A stretch of 64,000 nucleotides of DNA, taken from contig CANLHK010000001.1 of assembly GCA_947490615.1 (NCBI GenBank), forward strand, positions 62,001-126,000, written 5' to 3'. The translations under genes and the position numbers were made by a program. The notes beneath the pieces were generated by a model that did no database searches, was not told the origin of the DNA, and saw only the letters and a program-made list of their open reading frames with translations. Numbering within the stretch: the stretch's first letter is position 1; each line of letters opens with the position of its first letter. Source of the stretch: Planctomycetaceae bacterium (lineage in GTDB: Bacteria; Planctomycetota; Phycisphaerae; Phycisphaerales; SM1A02). Shown here piece after piece: positions 16,184 through 22,376 of this stretch.

Positions 16184-16194
16184 GATGCGGGCTC

Positions 16195-16234
16195 CTTCCT
16201 TGTGGGCATCCGTGCCCGTGAGAGTTCATCCATG
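16195..16234 (-). promoter_or_regulatory. Cluster of three CsrA-type motifs in the csrA leader
   Basis: Reading the minus strand towards csrA there are CATGGATG (16234-16227), CACGGATG (16214-16207) and CAAGGAAG (16202-16195). Each matches CANGGANG. The middle one sits in a perfect small hairpin GGGCA-CGGA-TGCCC (16217-16204) that presents GGA in the loop, the preferred CsrA geometry. The last one overlaps the csrA ribosome binding site. Confidence 0.65.
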
Positions 16235-16288
16235 TCACGCTGGCATTTGCCAGCACGCCATCTATCCCGGACTGACACAACGCACGCG

Positions 16289-16735: not shown

Positions 16736-16872
16736 GTCCTGTGCTCCATGCGGCCTTCCAATCCTTGGAGTCTGGCATCCATGCCAGTCGGGCTCCATCC
16801 CTGGTCCGATCAAAGGGGCCGTACCCTCGATCAGTGAACCGCGCTTCCGCGCGGGTTGTGTGCTGTGCTGTG

Positions 16873-18852
16873 CTAGCGAAGGTAGTCAAGGAGGCTCAGA
16901 TTCACTGCCTTGGCGGCTCCCGCGAGTCCTGCCTCCAGCTGTTGCTGAAGATTGGCAAATCGCGTCGCTGCCTGCGTGAAGTCGAGATCCTGAATACTCG
17001 ATCGCAACGCCATGTCCTGAATGCCGAGGTCTTCCTCGCGGACCGCCGACTCTGCGACGCGCCGCGAGCGGACTCCAACATCAGCACGCGCTTTCGCTGC
17101 GAGTGAGATGTCAGACTCCAATTTGCCAGTTGCAAACTCGATGCCACGCTGGTCGTTGCTCTGCAACGCCTCGCGCAAGGCAATGAGGTGCGAAAACACA
17201 CTGTCCACGGCAACAAGTGCGCGATCAGTGCCCACCAAACTTGCCGTGCTGCTGGTGCCCGCAATTCCCAGATCGGTCGCGGTCCCGCTGTTGTTGATGT
17301 CCGTGACAACGAGGGAAGCTCCGATGGTCGCATCGGTGAGTTCAATGCCGTTGCCCGTCGTGGTGAGAGAGGCGCTGAACTCTGCAGGCGTGATGCCTGC
17401 CGCCAGCGCAGCCGCATTGATCTGATCGAGGACATCTTGCACCGTGGCAGCGCCATCGATGTCGACTTCGAAAGTGCGCCCGTCCTTCACCGTCACGCGG
17501 AAGTCGCGGTCGGCGGCTGGATCGGGAAGACCCGTGAGTGGATCGACCGAACCATCGATCTGCGAGACGCCGCGACCCTCGTTGAAGTCCGCGAGCCGCG
17601 TGCCGCCGCTGAACGATCGGAGGCCGAGTTCACTGGCGGTAGTGCCGCCAATCTCCTCGATCGCCATCGTGGTGCCCGAGAGTTCATTGCGAATGTTGAG
17701 GCGAGTTCCATCTTCGGCGATCTCGACGCGCGCGCCGATTCCCGCACTGGTGACGGCGTTCTGGAAGTCCTGAATCGTCGTAAGCGCGCCAAGGTCGATG
17801 CGCCGCGTCTGACCGCCGTTCCTGAGCATGATTTCGCCGAGAGGCAGCGTCATGCCTGAGAGCGAGTCGAGTCGAGTCAGCGGCGTGATCTTCGGATCGA
17901 GATCCATGCCCGAGGTCGTCGCGCCGCCTGGATAGGTCCCTTGAAGGCCAAGGTCCCCCGCCGCGGTCGATGAGTTCGAATCGCGGATGATGACGCTGAT
18001 CCCCAAGGACGGCGTGATGGCGATGCGGTCCCCCGTGGCCGCGTCAATCCCCACGGTCGCGCCTGGGTCGGTCGCCTGAATGACCGTCGTGAGTGCGGTG
18101 AGGACATCCCCCACGGAGTCCGCATCGGACAGGTCGAGTTGCGAGACCGTCCCGTTCACATCGATTTCGATGACTCCAGCTCGGACGCCGTTTCCGTTGG
18201 CGCCGCGAAGTTCCGAGAGCCGCGTGGCTGCCACCATCGACGGATCGAGGTCACGCTCACCTTCGACGCGTCCTGAGAGCGCGCCGAAGGCAGCCTCTGC
18301 GCCGATCGTGACTCGCACATCCGAGGCCAAGCCGAGATCGCCAAGCATGCCCTCGCCACCGCCGATGTAGCGCACACCGCCGAGAAGCGAGGTAAAGGGT
18401 GCTTCGCTGTGACGATCCCCACCAAAGAAGTGAATCCCGCGAAGGTCGCGGTTGGCCACCGAAAGGAGCGAGTTGAGCATCGAGTCGATGACCGTGGCCT
18501 GGTTCTGCCGCGTCGCCTGGTCGCTGCCGACACCGATCTGAGAGAGCCCGATGCCGCGCGCCTCCTGCAAGAGGTCGCTCACATCGCCAATCGAGTTGTC
18601 GAGGGCGTTCAGCGTGGCGTCGGCCTGGCTGAGATTTCGCGTCCGCTGCTCACGCCGCTCGATCGCATCTTCCAAGACGCTCACCGTCGAAGCGCCGATG
18701 GCGTTCTCTGACGGCCGCGTGAATTCCTTTCCCGCAGCAAGCCGAACCTGGAGAAGCAGGAACTCGCGATTAGTCTTCTGAACACCCGACAGGGCAATTC
18801 TCGACGCTAGAGCATTCGGAACGCGCGCGAGGTTGGCAGGAATTGCACCCAT
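16873..18852 (-). CDS. flgL: Flagellar hook-filament junction protein FlgL (large form)
   Basis: 659 residues from ATG 18852 (MGAIPANLARVPNALASRIA), about twice the common FlgL length. FlgL forms the junction ring between hook and filament. The conserved N-terminal part is seen in 'LQVRLAAGKEFTRPSENAIGAST' and 'RNLSQADATLNALDNSIGDV'. The C-terminal helix 'EEDLGIQDMALRSSIQDLDF' then 'QAATRFANLQQQLEAGLAG' is canonical. The insertion (about 150-560) contains repeated beta modules of flagellin-hook-IN type, each ending near 'ATDLGIAGT' or 'AGDLGLQGT'. A sigma-54-type promoter lies 23 bases before the start, so this gene probably heads the flgL-fliW-csrA-flagellin operon. The longer ORF-track start runs through the promoter and is rejected. 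Confidence 0.92.
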   Translation of the reverse strand: MGAIPANLARVPNALASRIALSGVQKTNREFLLLQVRLAAGKEFTRPSENAIGASTVSVLEDAIERREQRTRNLSQADATLNALDNSIGDVSDLLQEARGIGLSQIGVGSDQATRQNQATVIDSMLNSLLSVANRDLRGIHFFGGDRHSEAPFTSLLGGVRYIGGGEGMLGDLGLASDVRVTIGAEAAFGALSGRVEGERDLDPSMVAATRLSELRGANGNGVRAGVIEIDVNGTVSQLDLSDADSVGDVLTALTTVIQATDPGATVGIDAATGDRIAITPSLGISVIIRDSNSSTAAGDLGLQGTYPGGATTSGMDLDPKITPLTRLDSLSGMTLPLGEIMLRNGGQTRRIDLGALTTIQDFQNAVTSAGIGARVEIAEDGTRLNIRNELSGTTMAIEEIGGTTASELGLRSFSGGTRLADFNEGRGVSQIDGSVDPLTGLPDPAADRDFRVTVKDGRTFEVDIDGAATVQDVLDQINAAALAAGITPAEFSASLTTTGNGIELTDATIGASLVVTDINNSGTATDLGIAGTSSTASLVGTDRALVAVDSVFSHLIALREALQSNDQRGIEFATGKLESDISLAAKARADVGVRSRRVAESAVREEDLGIQDMALRSSIQDLDFTQAATRFANLQQQLEAGLAGAAKAVNLSLLDYLR

Positions 18853-18874: not shown

Positions 18875-18890
18875 AGCAAGGGGTGTGCCG
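18875..18890 (-). promoter_or_regulatory. Sigma-54 (-24/-12) promoter of the flgL operon
   Basis: Minus-strand CGGCACACCCCTTGCT. It has GG and GC 10 bases apart and matches GGCAC-N5-TTGC of the RpoN consensus. The predicted transcript start is about 12 bases before the flgL ATG, which gives a very short leader that still includes the GGAG ribosome binding site. Confidence 0.65.
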
Positions 18891-19009
18891 CTCCGTAATC
18901 ACGGCGCCCATCGCCTCCAATTGATCCGCGGTCCGCGGAACCGGGTCTGAGAAACCAAATCACGGAGCGAAGTAGGGTGAAATCCCCCGAAGGGCTGCAT
19001 GGCGAAGCA

Positions 19010-19346
19010 GTTCTGTCGCACTTCCTAGTGAGTCCTTCCGGGCTTCGCCGCGAAAGCGGCACAGAGAATTCGAGCAGTGAGTTGAGAATGTGAGACCTGC
19101 AACCAAGCGATTCGTTCGGGGCAACAACCGGATCGCTTGGTGTGTGGGGTGTGCTGAGGTGGTTCAATCGATCGCTGGCTGCTAGTGGTGAGCCTTGTGG
19201 TCGAACCGCCTCAATGCCGCTCCAACGGGGGCTGGTCTCCGCTTGTGTCTTGGACGTGCGATCACGTCCCGTACGTCCTAGACAGAAGTCTCAACGACAC
19301 GCCGATTACATCGCGCCGACGAGCAATCGTCGGCGCGTCTGTTTTT
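19010..19346 (+). ncRNA. Candidate structured non-coding RNA, copy A
   Basis: No credible ORF. The + strand folds into a series of hairpins ending in an intrinsic terminator. These are GCCGC-GAAA-GCGGC (19047-19060, GNRA loop), CCAAGCGAT/ATCGCTTGG (19103-19140), the 11-bp stem TGAGGTGGTTC/GAACCGCCTCA (19155-19213), and GTCTTGGACGT/ACGTCCTAGAC with one T-T mismatch (19247-19283), which competes with a local GGACGTG/CACGTCC hairpin. Wobble pairs fit only the + strand. Copy B, 505 bases downstream, is collinear: the shared GTCGCACTTCC lies 297 and 293 bases before the two terminators, and a related TTGAGxATG block and a GCCTCA block follow at matching distances. The 5' end is uncertain and may be near 18950. 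No match to tmRNA, RNase P, 6S or SRP RNA is apparent. Confidence 0.55.
19312..19346 (+). terminator. Intrinsic terminator of RNA copy A
   Basis: Perfect 11-bp stem CGCGCCGACGA/TCGTCGGCGCG with a GCAA tetraloop, then TCTGTTTTT. It is closely similar to the 19813-19848 terminator. Confidence 0.88.
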
Positions 19347-19514
19347 GCATTGATTTGCATTGAGTGGAGGTCAGTGCTTCGACTTGATTCCCTTTGGGCG
19401 CCTGCAGTTACGACTGCCGCGCTCTCAAACTGCCGCAGTGGATCGGGCGTTGGCGCACCTGGAAAACTGCACAACTTTCAAAAAATCGGCGACGCTGCTT
19501 TGCGCGGAAACGGC

Positions 19515-19848
19515 GTTTCGTCGCACTTCCAATTGGTGGATGCAGCATTGCGGCCCTATGGCCGCACCAGGAGCTCGCAGGTTGTTTGAGCATGGGATGG
19601 CATGACTGTGGGTATCGCACTCTTCGATCCAACCGAGACGACCTGTGGATCGAGGGGAGTTTGGCGCGCGAGAATGGCTCAGAGGAAGCGACCGGCTTGC
19701 CGATCGCCTCACGAGAGTGACGCGTTGAGCTCAATGGGCGTTTCCGCACCGCGTGTCGTGACGCAGCTGTCGCGTTGTGCGTCGTGACATCGGGACAATC
19801 AATCCTCGAGGACCAAGCGCCGACGGCAACGTCGGCGCTTGGGTTTTT
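19515..19848 (+). ncRNA. Candidate structured non-coding RNA, copy B
   Basis: Second member of the tandem pair. It starts around the shared GTCGCACTTCC (19520-19530). Structural elements in order: GCGGCC-CTAT-GGCCGC (19550-19565), TCTTCGATCC/GGATCGAGGG with two U-G pairs (19621-19656), CGG-CTTG-CCG within GCGA/TCGC (about 19687-19710), and UGUCGUGACGCA/UGCGUCGUGACA with tandem G-U/U-G pairs (19754-19789), then the terminator. The wobble pairs can form only in + strand RNA. Sequence between elements has diverged from copy A while order and spacing are kept, which looks like duplication followed by structure-preserving drift. No ORF in it has a recognisable feature. Confidence 0.55.
19813..19848 (+). 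terminator. Intrinsic terminator of RNA copy B
   Basis: Perfect 13-bp stem CCAAGCGCCGACG/CGTCGGCGCTTGG with a GCAA loop (19813-19842), followed by GTTTTTGG. Core and loop are the same as in the copy A terminator. Confidence 0.88.
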
Positions 19849-19994
19849 GGGGTGGGCATCGTGCGCGCGGGAGCGGTGAGGCCAGTCTGCCGCTTCATGA
19901 GCGTGCCGCCGCAGCCGAACTGTCGAAGGAGCGAACTTGATCCTCCGACGAAACTCGGAAACCCACAGCGCCCGACTCCTAACCTCGCGGCGCT

Positions 19995-20645
19995 ATGTCG
20001 GACTACCTCTACATCGATCCTCGCGGACGCCGCTCGGGCCCCTTCTCGGAAGCTGAACTGAAGCTCCTCGCGAGCCGCGGGCTGCTTGAGACGGACGGCC
20101 ATGTTGAACTCGAAGGTCTCGGCAGCGTGTGGTCGGTGGGTGAGGTTCCGTGGCTGAGCCAGCGGCCTGCCGCTTCGGTCACGCAACCCACGACTCCCCC
20201 GCCGCCGCCGCCTGACGCGCCCGCGGCGCCCACGGCATCGGGAGCGCATCAGCCCACGCTCGAATCGCTCGACCACCGCTGCGCGGCCGCGTTTTCGATC
20301 CCTCCGCAGACCCCACAAGACGCCTTCGCGCGGGCCAGCAGTGCGACGCCCTCGCCGCTCGGCGCGCCTCTGCCAACTTCGAGTTGCTCGCGCGCGGTCT
20401 TTGTGATCCTCGCGATCCTCCCCGCGTGCATCGGACTCTTCGGTCTGCACAGCATCGTCGCTGGCTACACCCGTCGCGGCATCATCGCGCTGGTCTTGTC
20501 CATCGTCACCTGCTTCGGATGTTGCTGCATCGCGATCCCGCCCTGCGCGTGCTTGAGCGTTCCAGTGTGGATCGTGCTCTTCGTGCTCGCGATCTATGAC
20601 GCCTGCACGGTCAAGGTCGATGCGAAGGGTCGAGCCCTCAGCTAA
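19995..20645 (+). CDS. GYF-domain membrane protein with TM2-like C-terminus
   Basis: 216 residues. The N-terminal ~55 residues form a bacterial GYF_2-type domain (YIDPRGRRSGPFSEAELKLL, 'GSVWSVGEVPWL'), which usually binds proline-rich peptides. Next is a proline-rich linker with a run of six prolines (about 68-73), which could itself be a ligand. The C-terminal ~85 residues hold two hydrophobic segments ('VFVILAILPACIGLFGLHSI', 'IIALVLSIVTCFGCCCIAI...') with the loop 'GYTRRGIIALVLS' and the end 'WIVLFVLAIYDACTVK', resembling TM2-domain proteins. It converges on flgK with a 30-base gap. Function unknown. Confidence 0.75.
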   Translation: MSDYLYIDPRGRRSGPFSEAELKLLASRGLLETDGHVELEGLGSVWSVGEVPWLSQRPAASVTQPTTPPPPPPDAPAAPTASGAHQPTLESLDHRCAAAFSIPPQTPQDAFARASSATPSPLGAPLPTSSCSRAVFVILAILPACIGLFGLHSIVAGYTRRGIIALVLSIVTCFGCCCIAIPPCACLSVPVWIVLFVLAIYDACTVKVDAKGRALS

Positions 20646-20675: not shown

Positions 20676-22376
20676 TCACACAATCGACAGGAGCGTCTGC
20701 AGCGTCTCGTCAATCGTGGCGATGTAACGCGCTGCAGCTTGGAACTGCCGCTGGTAGGCGAGCATGTTGATCGACTCTTCATCGATCGACACGCCGCTGG
20801 TGGCCTGAATCTGCGACTCGAGGTTTTCGCGCACGAGCATCGAGCTCTCGGCTTTGGTGTTGGCTGCCTCAGTGCGCACCGCGAGGTCGGTCGTGACGCT
20901 CTGCCAGAAGCCGCGCAAACTGCGGCCCGCGAGACTCTCGACGCCCACATCTTCCAATCCTGCGATGGCCAGAGCGCCAGTGTTGGAGCCAGGAATGTGG
21001 CCTTGTCCAGCAGCGAGCAATCGTGGATCGTCGACGAGCGCCTGGTTGATGGCGAGATCGGTCGCGTCGCTTCCACCAAAGAAACTGTTGATGCCAAGAG
21101 CCGCGAGCATCCCGCTCGAATCCTCGCTGAAGCTGACTTGGTAGCCGTTGGACGCATCAATGCGCAGTGCGCCGTCGGCCGTCACGCTGGAACTGCCCGT
21201 GCCTGACGGGAACGCAGCAGCGATGGTCGCGGAGAGCGCGTTGAGCGAAGTCGTCGCAGGATCAACGGCAATGAGCACGGTGGTGCGCTCGCCTGTCGAT
21301 TGGTTGGTGACATGCAACTCAAACGAGCCGTTCCTGATGTCAAAGGGAATCTCCGCAGCGTCGGCCGCGAGATTGGCCGTTGGATCGCGGACGGCATTGA
21401 GGCCCGTGACGCTGGAAAAGCCCCGCAAACCCTGGCCTTGCGAGTGAACGCGGTTCACCTGGAACGCGAGTTCGCGCGCAAGGGTGTCGAGGTCTTCAAT
21501 CGCAGGATCCACGGTGTCGGCGCGCTGACGGAAGAGTGCACCGATCTGGCCGCCATCAGGATTGAGCGTCGTGCCGTCGGCTTCAACGCGCAAGGAGAGC
21601 GCGGTGCCGTTGCCACTGGCTTCAGTGCGCAGCACGATGCCGCGCGACTCGCCTCCAAGGACGACAGGAATGGAGTTCACCAGCACATCGATGGCGCCGT
21701 TGGCCTGCTCGATGCAGCTCACGGGAATGAACTGGGAGATCTCGTCGATGAGAATGTCCCGCTGATCACGCAGCGCGTTGGCGTCGCCGCCTGTTCCGCC
21801 CTGCTCGGTCTCGACGATCTGGCGATTGACATCGGCAACCTGATCGAGCAATCCATCGACAGTACGAATCGTCGCGCCCAGCGCGCGGTCGATCTCGGTG
21901 CGGACCTTGGTGTGCTCGATGCGCAGCTCGCGAACCGCTGTGGCGAGGCCGCTTCCCTGCTGAATGACGACGGTTCGGACCGCTTCATCGGTGGGGTTGT
22001 TGGCCAGTTCGCTGAAGCTGTTGAAGAACGCGCTGAGACGGCTGGAAAGGTCCTGATCGGTGAGCTCGTTGCGGATCGTTTCGATCGCGTTGAGGAAGCG
22101 CTGGTCGACCTCTGCAGAGTTCTGATCGCTGATGGCGGAACGGGCGCGACCTTGCAGCGCGGTATCGACGGTGCGCTGAATGCGTGCGAGTTGCACACCT
22201 GTTCCGATGAATCCGCCGCGACCGATGAACTCAGGACGACTGGGCGACAGCCGTGCAACTTGCCGGTTGTAGCCAGGCGTCGCTGCGTTGGCCATGTTGT
22301 TGCCTGCGACCTGAATCGCGGCTTGCGACGCGAGAATCGCCGACTGTCCGATTTGAAGAGCGCCGTTGATGCTCAT
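20676..22376 (-). CDS. flgK: Flagellar hook-associated protein FlgK
   Basis: 566 residues, a normal length. HAP1 joins hook to filament together with FlgL. The N-terminus 'GQSAILASQAAIQVAGNNMANAATPGYNRQ' is the flagellar rod/hook family signature. 'LSSRLSAFFNSFSELANNPTDEAVR' and 'LRDQRDILIDEISQFIPV' are typical FlgK blocks. The C-terminus 'SSGVSIDEESINMLAYQRQFQAAARYIATIDETLQTLLSIV' type helix is diagnostic (read as SGVSIDEESINMLAYQRQF). It is the last gene of the flgI-flgJ-flgN-flgK unit, 60 bases after flgN. Confidence 0.96.
   Translation of the reverse strand: MSINGALQIGQSAILASQAAIQVAGNNMANAATPGYNRQVARLSPSRPEFIGRGGFIGTGVQLARIQRTVDTALQGRARSAISDQNSAEVDQRFLNAIETIRNELTDQDLSSRLSAFFNSFSELANNPTDEAVRTVVIQQGSGLATAVRELRIEHTKVRTEIDRALGATIRTVDGLLDQVADVNRQIVETEQGGTGGDANALRDQRDILIDEISQFIPVSCIEQANGAIDVLVNSIPVVLGGESRGIVLRTEASGNGTALSLRVEADGTTLNPDGGQIGALFRQRADTVDPAIEDLDTLARELAFQVNRVHSQGQGLRGFSSVTGLNAVRDPTANLAADAAEIPFDIRNGSFELHVTNQSTGERTTVLIAVDPATTSLNALSATIAAAFPSGTGSSSVTADGALRIDASNGYQVSFSEDSSGMLAALGINSFFGGSDATDLAINQALVDDPRLLAAGQGHIPGSNTGALAIAGLEDVGVESLAGRSLRGFWQSVTTDLAVRTEAANTKAESSMLVRENLESQIQATSGVSIDEESINMLAYQRQFQAAARYIATIDETLQTLLSIV

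Follow-up and report, generated by a model that had tools for sequence, protein, structure and literature searches.

What is encoded beside flgL in the flagellar gene cluster of this planctomycetal bacterium, where two segments of the + strand each end in a terminator? The window, by which we mean the whole stretch of 64,000 nucleotides that was analysed, belongs to a genome of 3.26 Mb (G000), and csrA and fliW lie in the same flagellar cluster as the first of the two segments, csrA being two genes away. From the DNA letters it had been proposed that the segments, here called RNA1 and RNA2 (Table 1), are non-coding RNAs of 330-400 nt, duplicated and conserved in structure, that belong to no known class. 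Our comparison with sister genomes leaves little doubt that RNA1 is a genuine structured RNA and conserved, and RNA2 is, on the sequence comparisons given below, most plausibly a tandem duplicate of it that is either old or quick to diverge.

Table 1. Features of the RNA1/RNA2 locus (positions in the window).
Feature	Position	Strand	Description
flgL	16873-18852	-	divergent neighbour of RNA1; Flagellin_N and Flagellin_C domains; start set by conservation
Conserved block GTGAAATCCCCC...GCATGG...	18978-19014	+	just upstream of RNA1
RNA1	~18995-19346	+	structured non-coding RNA, ~340-350 nt; 5' end is an estimate; syntenic homologues, covariation, fold z -6.2
M1 GUCGCACUUCCUAGUGAGUCCUUCCGGGC	19015-19043	+	near-invariant across four genomes; UUCC in its hairpin loops
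H1c	19047-19060	+	short GC hairpin; stem different in each copy, RNA2 included
H2	19102-19141	+	hairpin, near-invariant 14-nt loop UUCGGGGCAACAAC; 6/8 core pairs double-changed
H3	19177-19194	+	hairpin, invariant loop (G)AGUGGUG (GAGUGGUG); 5/7 pairs double-changed
M4 GGGGGC	19227-19232	+	may form a pseudoknot with GUCC (19266-19269) of the H4 loop
H4	19246-19284	+	two-part hairpin, loop AnnnCGUCC; 7/14 pairs double-changed
RNA1 terminator	19312-19346	+	stem 19312-19337, 11 bp, GCAA loop, T-run to 19346
RNA2	~19495-19849	+	diverged tandem paralogue of RNA1; R1 match of 21.3 bits at 19495-19662
GTCGCACTTCC of RNA2	19520-19530	+	sequence match
H2 counterpart in RNA2	19620-19657	+	14-nt loop length kept, loop sequence changed
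H4 counterpart in RNA2	19754-19789	+	position and form (tandem G-U/U-G); no sequence-level support
RNA2 terminator	19813-19848	+	stem 19813-19842, 13 bp, GCAA loop, T-run to 19848
GYF_2-like gene	19995-20645	+	downstream of RNA2; domain match below the Pfam cut-off
flgK	20676-22376	-	after the GYF_2-like gene

The physical features of the original prediction were found as described. A terminator scan recovered both GC stems with their GCAA loops and T-runs, and the two terminators share the same core. The sequence GTCGCACTTCC, placed 297 and 293 bases before the terminator stems, was located at 19015-19025 and 19520-19530; the short GC hairpins are present, as are the TTGAG landmarks, at the distances claimed, and the hairpin with tandem G-U/U-G at 19754-19789. 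Folding energies were -170.7 kcal/mol for the + strand versus -137.6 kcal/mol for the - strand of the RNA1 segment (W1), and -158.5 versus -142.9 kcal/mol for the RNA2 segment (W2), i.e. both strands of both segments fold stably, the + strand more so. Relative to dinucleotide shuffles the fold reached z = -6.2 for W1 and -3.1 for W2.

Homologues were sought by DNA search of 60 relatives, which led to two sister genomes, G008 (E 2e-20) and G009 (E 8e-13), whose matches are syntenic with RNA1 and divergent from flgL. A covariance model of the 5' domain (R1) was built from RNA1 and these two sequences. Among genomes held out from the model, R1 finds G013 at the syntenic place (20.7 bits, E 0.006) and G014, first spotted by reading flgL upstream regions (34.4 bits, E 9e-9). 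The covariance search suggested along with the original prediction, carried out with RNA1 and two foreign homologues, thus recovers G013 and G014 as well as RNA2. A second model (R2), covering the 3' domain and built from five genomes, recovers the same five carrier genomes. Homologues of RNA1 are therefore present in 4 of 15 sister genomes, namely G008, G009, G014 and, much diverged, G013.

Compensatory changes are abundant in these syntenic homologues, as expected if the claim of structure conservation holds. Pairing holds for 87.6% of cells in the 3' domain, where both sides have changed in 12 of 21 pairs; shuffling gave a mean of 3.7 such pairs, with 0 of 500 shuffles as high, and slid controls gave 0-3. 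For the 3' domain and for H2, 0-2 of 500 shuffles reached the respective double-change counts. All H2 cells are paired and six of the eight core pairs are double-changed, RNA2 included, a count taken from five short sequences cut by hand around the loop, which is a choice favouring pairing. On a full-length alignment of three sequences, 22 of 92 predicted pairs are double-changed. The stems thus vary among genomes and the apical loops stay constant: UUCGGGGCAACAAC in H2, GAGUGGUG in H3, AnnnCGUCC in H4 and UUCC in the 5' hairpin H1b. The H1b loop reads UUCC in RNA1, G008, G009 and G014 and UCC in G013, which is without the first UUCC loop. Every homologue ends in a terminator, the stem sequence of which is different in each. 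Read off the alignment, GUCC of the H4 loop could also pair with upstream GGGC (GGAU in G013), a possible pseudoknot.

A protein-coding region was considered and ruled out, as no frame is kept across the homologues: similarity is scattered over all frames and both strands, and no open reading frame conserved through the region was found. Covariation in homologues and the lack of such a frame were two of the points on which the prediction had been staked beforehand, and it has withstood both. Changing stems and fixed loops, with no shared reading frame, form the pattern expected from selection on RNA structure. The claim that these RNAs lie outside known classes likewise stands, since the window has no match in Rfam 15 at the gathering threshold (the best weak matches, with E 1.1 and 2.3, fall far short of it).

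The duplication is a more delicate matter. With R1, RNA2 scores 21.3 bits, a value exceeded at only one other place in the genome (E 1e-5 in 9 kb and 0.004 genome-wide), and in a plain alignment of RNA1 with RNA2 the 5' domain reaches a p of about 0.001. The 3' domain does not exceed chance (p 0.43), and what the two RNAs share there is limited to the terminator and to where the long hairpin lies and how it is shaped. The predicted duplication is hence solid for the 5' half and positional only for the 3' half. One could object that RNA2 is unrelated to RNA1 and simply a terminator-ended sequence; the chance-level similarity of the 3' domain and the failure of R2 to detect RNA2 (1.0 bit) would fit. 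Against this, the R1 score is far above that of unrelated places in the region, the two segments are in tandem and in register, the 5' alignment is significant, the 14-nt loop length of H2 is the same on a fully paired stem, and the terminator core is shared. We consider an unrelated RNA2 improbable. RNA2 is nevertheless without the most conserved loops of RNA1 (GGGGCAACAAC, GAGUGGUG, CGUCC).

The four homologous loci are each single-copy, so that the tandem pair is peculiar to the window species among the genomes seen. The order in G014 runs from flgL through the RNA, a dockerin-like gene and a GYF gene to flgK. The window has no dockerin-like gene in the corresponding slot (19346-20645, compared with L105 of G014), and RNA2 lies there; about 100 dockerin-domain matches exist elsewhere in the window genome, none of them full-length to the dockerin-like protein of G014.

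The RNA is restricted to part of one planctomycete-type genus. For 14 genomes of the genus we read the sequence upstream of flgL (G010 and G011 were left out, their FlgL match being the protein end only). The RNA is absent from eight of them (G001-G007 and G012), all of which retain flgL and the neighbouring dockerin-like gene. In the FlgL tree the carriers cluster, which is compatible with one change or with two. Beyond the genus, an R1 scan of 151 family genomes gave only matches at about chance level, and an R2 scan of 400 order and 397 class genomes gave nothing convincing. A pattern scan of a named genome collection yielded only two MAG contigs (L093 and L094, one from an isolate labelled Erken-D2), whose motif spacing makes it most likely that they are G014 and G009 again. 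We also considered a mobile or phage-borne RNA. This was rejected: RNA1 has a single strong match in the whole genome, and searches of viral contigs, phages and plasmids returned no match.

Two further observations concern the same interval in other genomes. That of G015 holds a very strong + strand terminator (L058, ~19 bp stem) and no detectable homologue of the RNA; the terminator perhaps belongs to a further diverged or an unrelated non-coding RNA. Genome-specific short tandem direct repeats occur upstream of flgL in G006 (L053), G008 (L049), G009 (L051) and G013 (L052), on the stretch from the flgL promoter to the RNA or to the next gene, e.g. GATCGAGGACTTG many times in G006 and GCTGCGAGATG in G008.

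How is the RNA transcribed? The conserved block just upstream of RNA1 can be aligned among the window, G008, G009 and G013, and weakly in G014; it is also the stretch that links the diverged G013 to G009 in a DNA search. It may be a putative promoter or the 5' boundary of RNA1. A promoter scan recognised no sigma-70 promoter for the RNA, and by eye the block holds no convincing sigma-54-like or sigma-70 promoter. On the - strand, the sigma-54-like promoter sequence GGCAC-N5-TTGC lies directly before flgL (18876-18889); it is found in the carrier genomes and, by eye, also in other sister genomes. Because flgL has its own sigma-54-like promoter sequence next to its start, its transcript does not include the RNA.

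The conserved domain might instead be a cis-acting leader, a riboswitch or attenuator controlling the next + strand gene with the terminator as its switch, present twice in tandem in the window. The downstream gene is indeed on the same strand in all carriers, and the terminator directly follows the conserved domain, with 50-150 bases to the next start. Its identity varies, however: the four sister genomes have a dockerin-like gene there and the window a GYF-like one. The downstream gene has an AT-rich hexamer of its own just before the start with or without the RNA, and eight sister genomes keep it without the RNA. Nor do minimum-energy folds show a mutually exclusive antiterminator. A downstream gene that varies, has its own near-start hexamer and persists without the RNA makes a leader role unlikely, and we would give it only a slim chance. 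Taken together with the separate flgL promoter, this suggests that the RNA is an independent transcript.

We therefore prefer, with no more than middling confidence, to see RNA1 as a stand-alone, terminator-ended, multi-arm non-coding RNA of ~340 nt that would be transcribed from its own promoter and act in trans, with RNA2 as its diverged tandem duplicate. Its covarying stems would present the fixed loops for base pairing, and the two UUCC-bearing 5' loops might be anti-Shine-Dalgarno seeds, by analogy with the C-rich loops of RNAIII. Speculatively, csrA (Shine-Dalgarno stretch AAGGAAGGAG) may be among the targets, as the conserved UCCUUCCGGGC could pair with csrA GCCC-(ACAA)-GGAAGGA through UCCUUCC/GGAAGGA and GGGC/GCCC. 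When M1 was tested against flagellar leaders, csrA was the best partner in each of the four genomes. In three of them it ranks among the top 5-7% of background starts; in G014, 24% of the background equals it. The candidate pairing is modest and draws on bases that are themselves part of H1b, and G001, which has no copy of the RNA, still has the csrA stretch unaltered. We thus treat csrA as a weak and speculative candidate, a lead only.

Proximity to csrA and fliW also brings to mind an RNA that sequesters CsrA, of the CsrB/RsmY type. Such RNAs are stand-alone and multi-hairpin, as is RNA1, which here lies in a cluster with csrA. They are defined by repeated GGA loops, though, which RNA1 is without: GGA is depleted in the five main copies (2, 3, 2, 4 and 5, versus 5.5-9.4 expected), and no conserved GGA sits in a hairpin loop. 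Depletion of GGA in RNA1 and its homologues shows that the RNA is not a CsrA sponge, and the idea can practically be dismissed for CsrB, CsrC and RsmY alike. Short hairpins with GGA in the loop do occur on the - strand in the leaders of csrA (16184-16240; GGGCAcggauGCCC, then AAGGAAGGA) and fliW (16736-16800; UGGCAUGGAUGCCA and CCAAGGAUUGG), and are kept in four sister genomes. They resemble CsrA sites, which suggests possible feedback control of csrA and fliW.

The loops of H2, H3 and H4 gave no consistent target among flagellar leaders. This bears on a further explanation, in which the fixed loops would contact a protein, or one another in a tertiary structure (cf. 6S RNA), and not mRNA. The three apical loops outside M1 are as conserved as M1, have no consistent mRNA partner, and the H4 loop may form a pseudoknot with M4. 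The neighbourhood, by contrast, suggests no partner protein, because flgL and the dockerin-like gene also occur without the RNA. We regard a scaffold or protein-binding RNA as possible and on the doubtful side. A bolder and rather unlikely version would make the RNA a lineage-specific class of large non-coding RNAs with a new biochemical role, its loops UUCGGGGCAACAAC, GAGUGGUG and CGUCC forming a tertiary structure or binding a dedicated partner; it would have undergone duplication in the window species, which has no dockerin gene next to it, followed by divergence of the second copy.

Returning to RNA1 as a trans-acting RNA, a close comparison is Staphylococcus aureus RNAIII, which binds ribosome-binding sites by its C-rich loops (PMC2837412). 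Like RNAIII, RNA1 is long, has many hairpins and carries pyrimidine-rich or C-rich loops that could dock on Shine-Dalgarno sequences. In contrast to RNAIII it belongs to a different phylum, shows no homology (no Rfam match), has UUCC in place of UCCC loops, and is without known targets or a recognised peptide frame. Two other RNAs, Termite-flg and flg-Rhizobiales, are by their names (flg) placed with flagellar genes. Both (RF01729 and RF01736) are candidate structured RNAs in PMC2864571, and RNA1 matches neither model (E up to 5). The same study describes Rhodopirellula-1, a candidate structured RNA from Proteobacteria and Planctomycetes, which has no Rfam accession there (PMC2864571) and is hence outside the Rfam comparison with RNA1. 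Within the papers covered by full-text word searches there was no report of a regulatory RNA at the planctomycete csrA-fliW-flagellar locus. By Rfam and by this word-based search, RNA1 is a new family of stand-alone bacterial structured RNAs.

The locus thus adds a structured RNA family that is not yet listed, and whose covariation is clear although the sequences are few, to a bacterial group in which, as far as our literature searches found, little regulatory RNA has been described. The RNA lies among flagellar genes together with csrA and fliW; its gain or loss happened within a single genus, and it is single-copy in the sisters and a diverging pair in the window. RNA1 and RNA2 are a compact case for studying how a large structured RNA originates, is duplicated and acquires a role.
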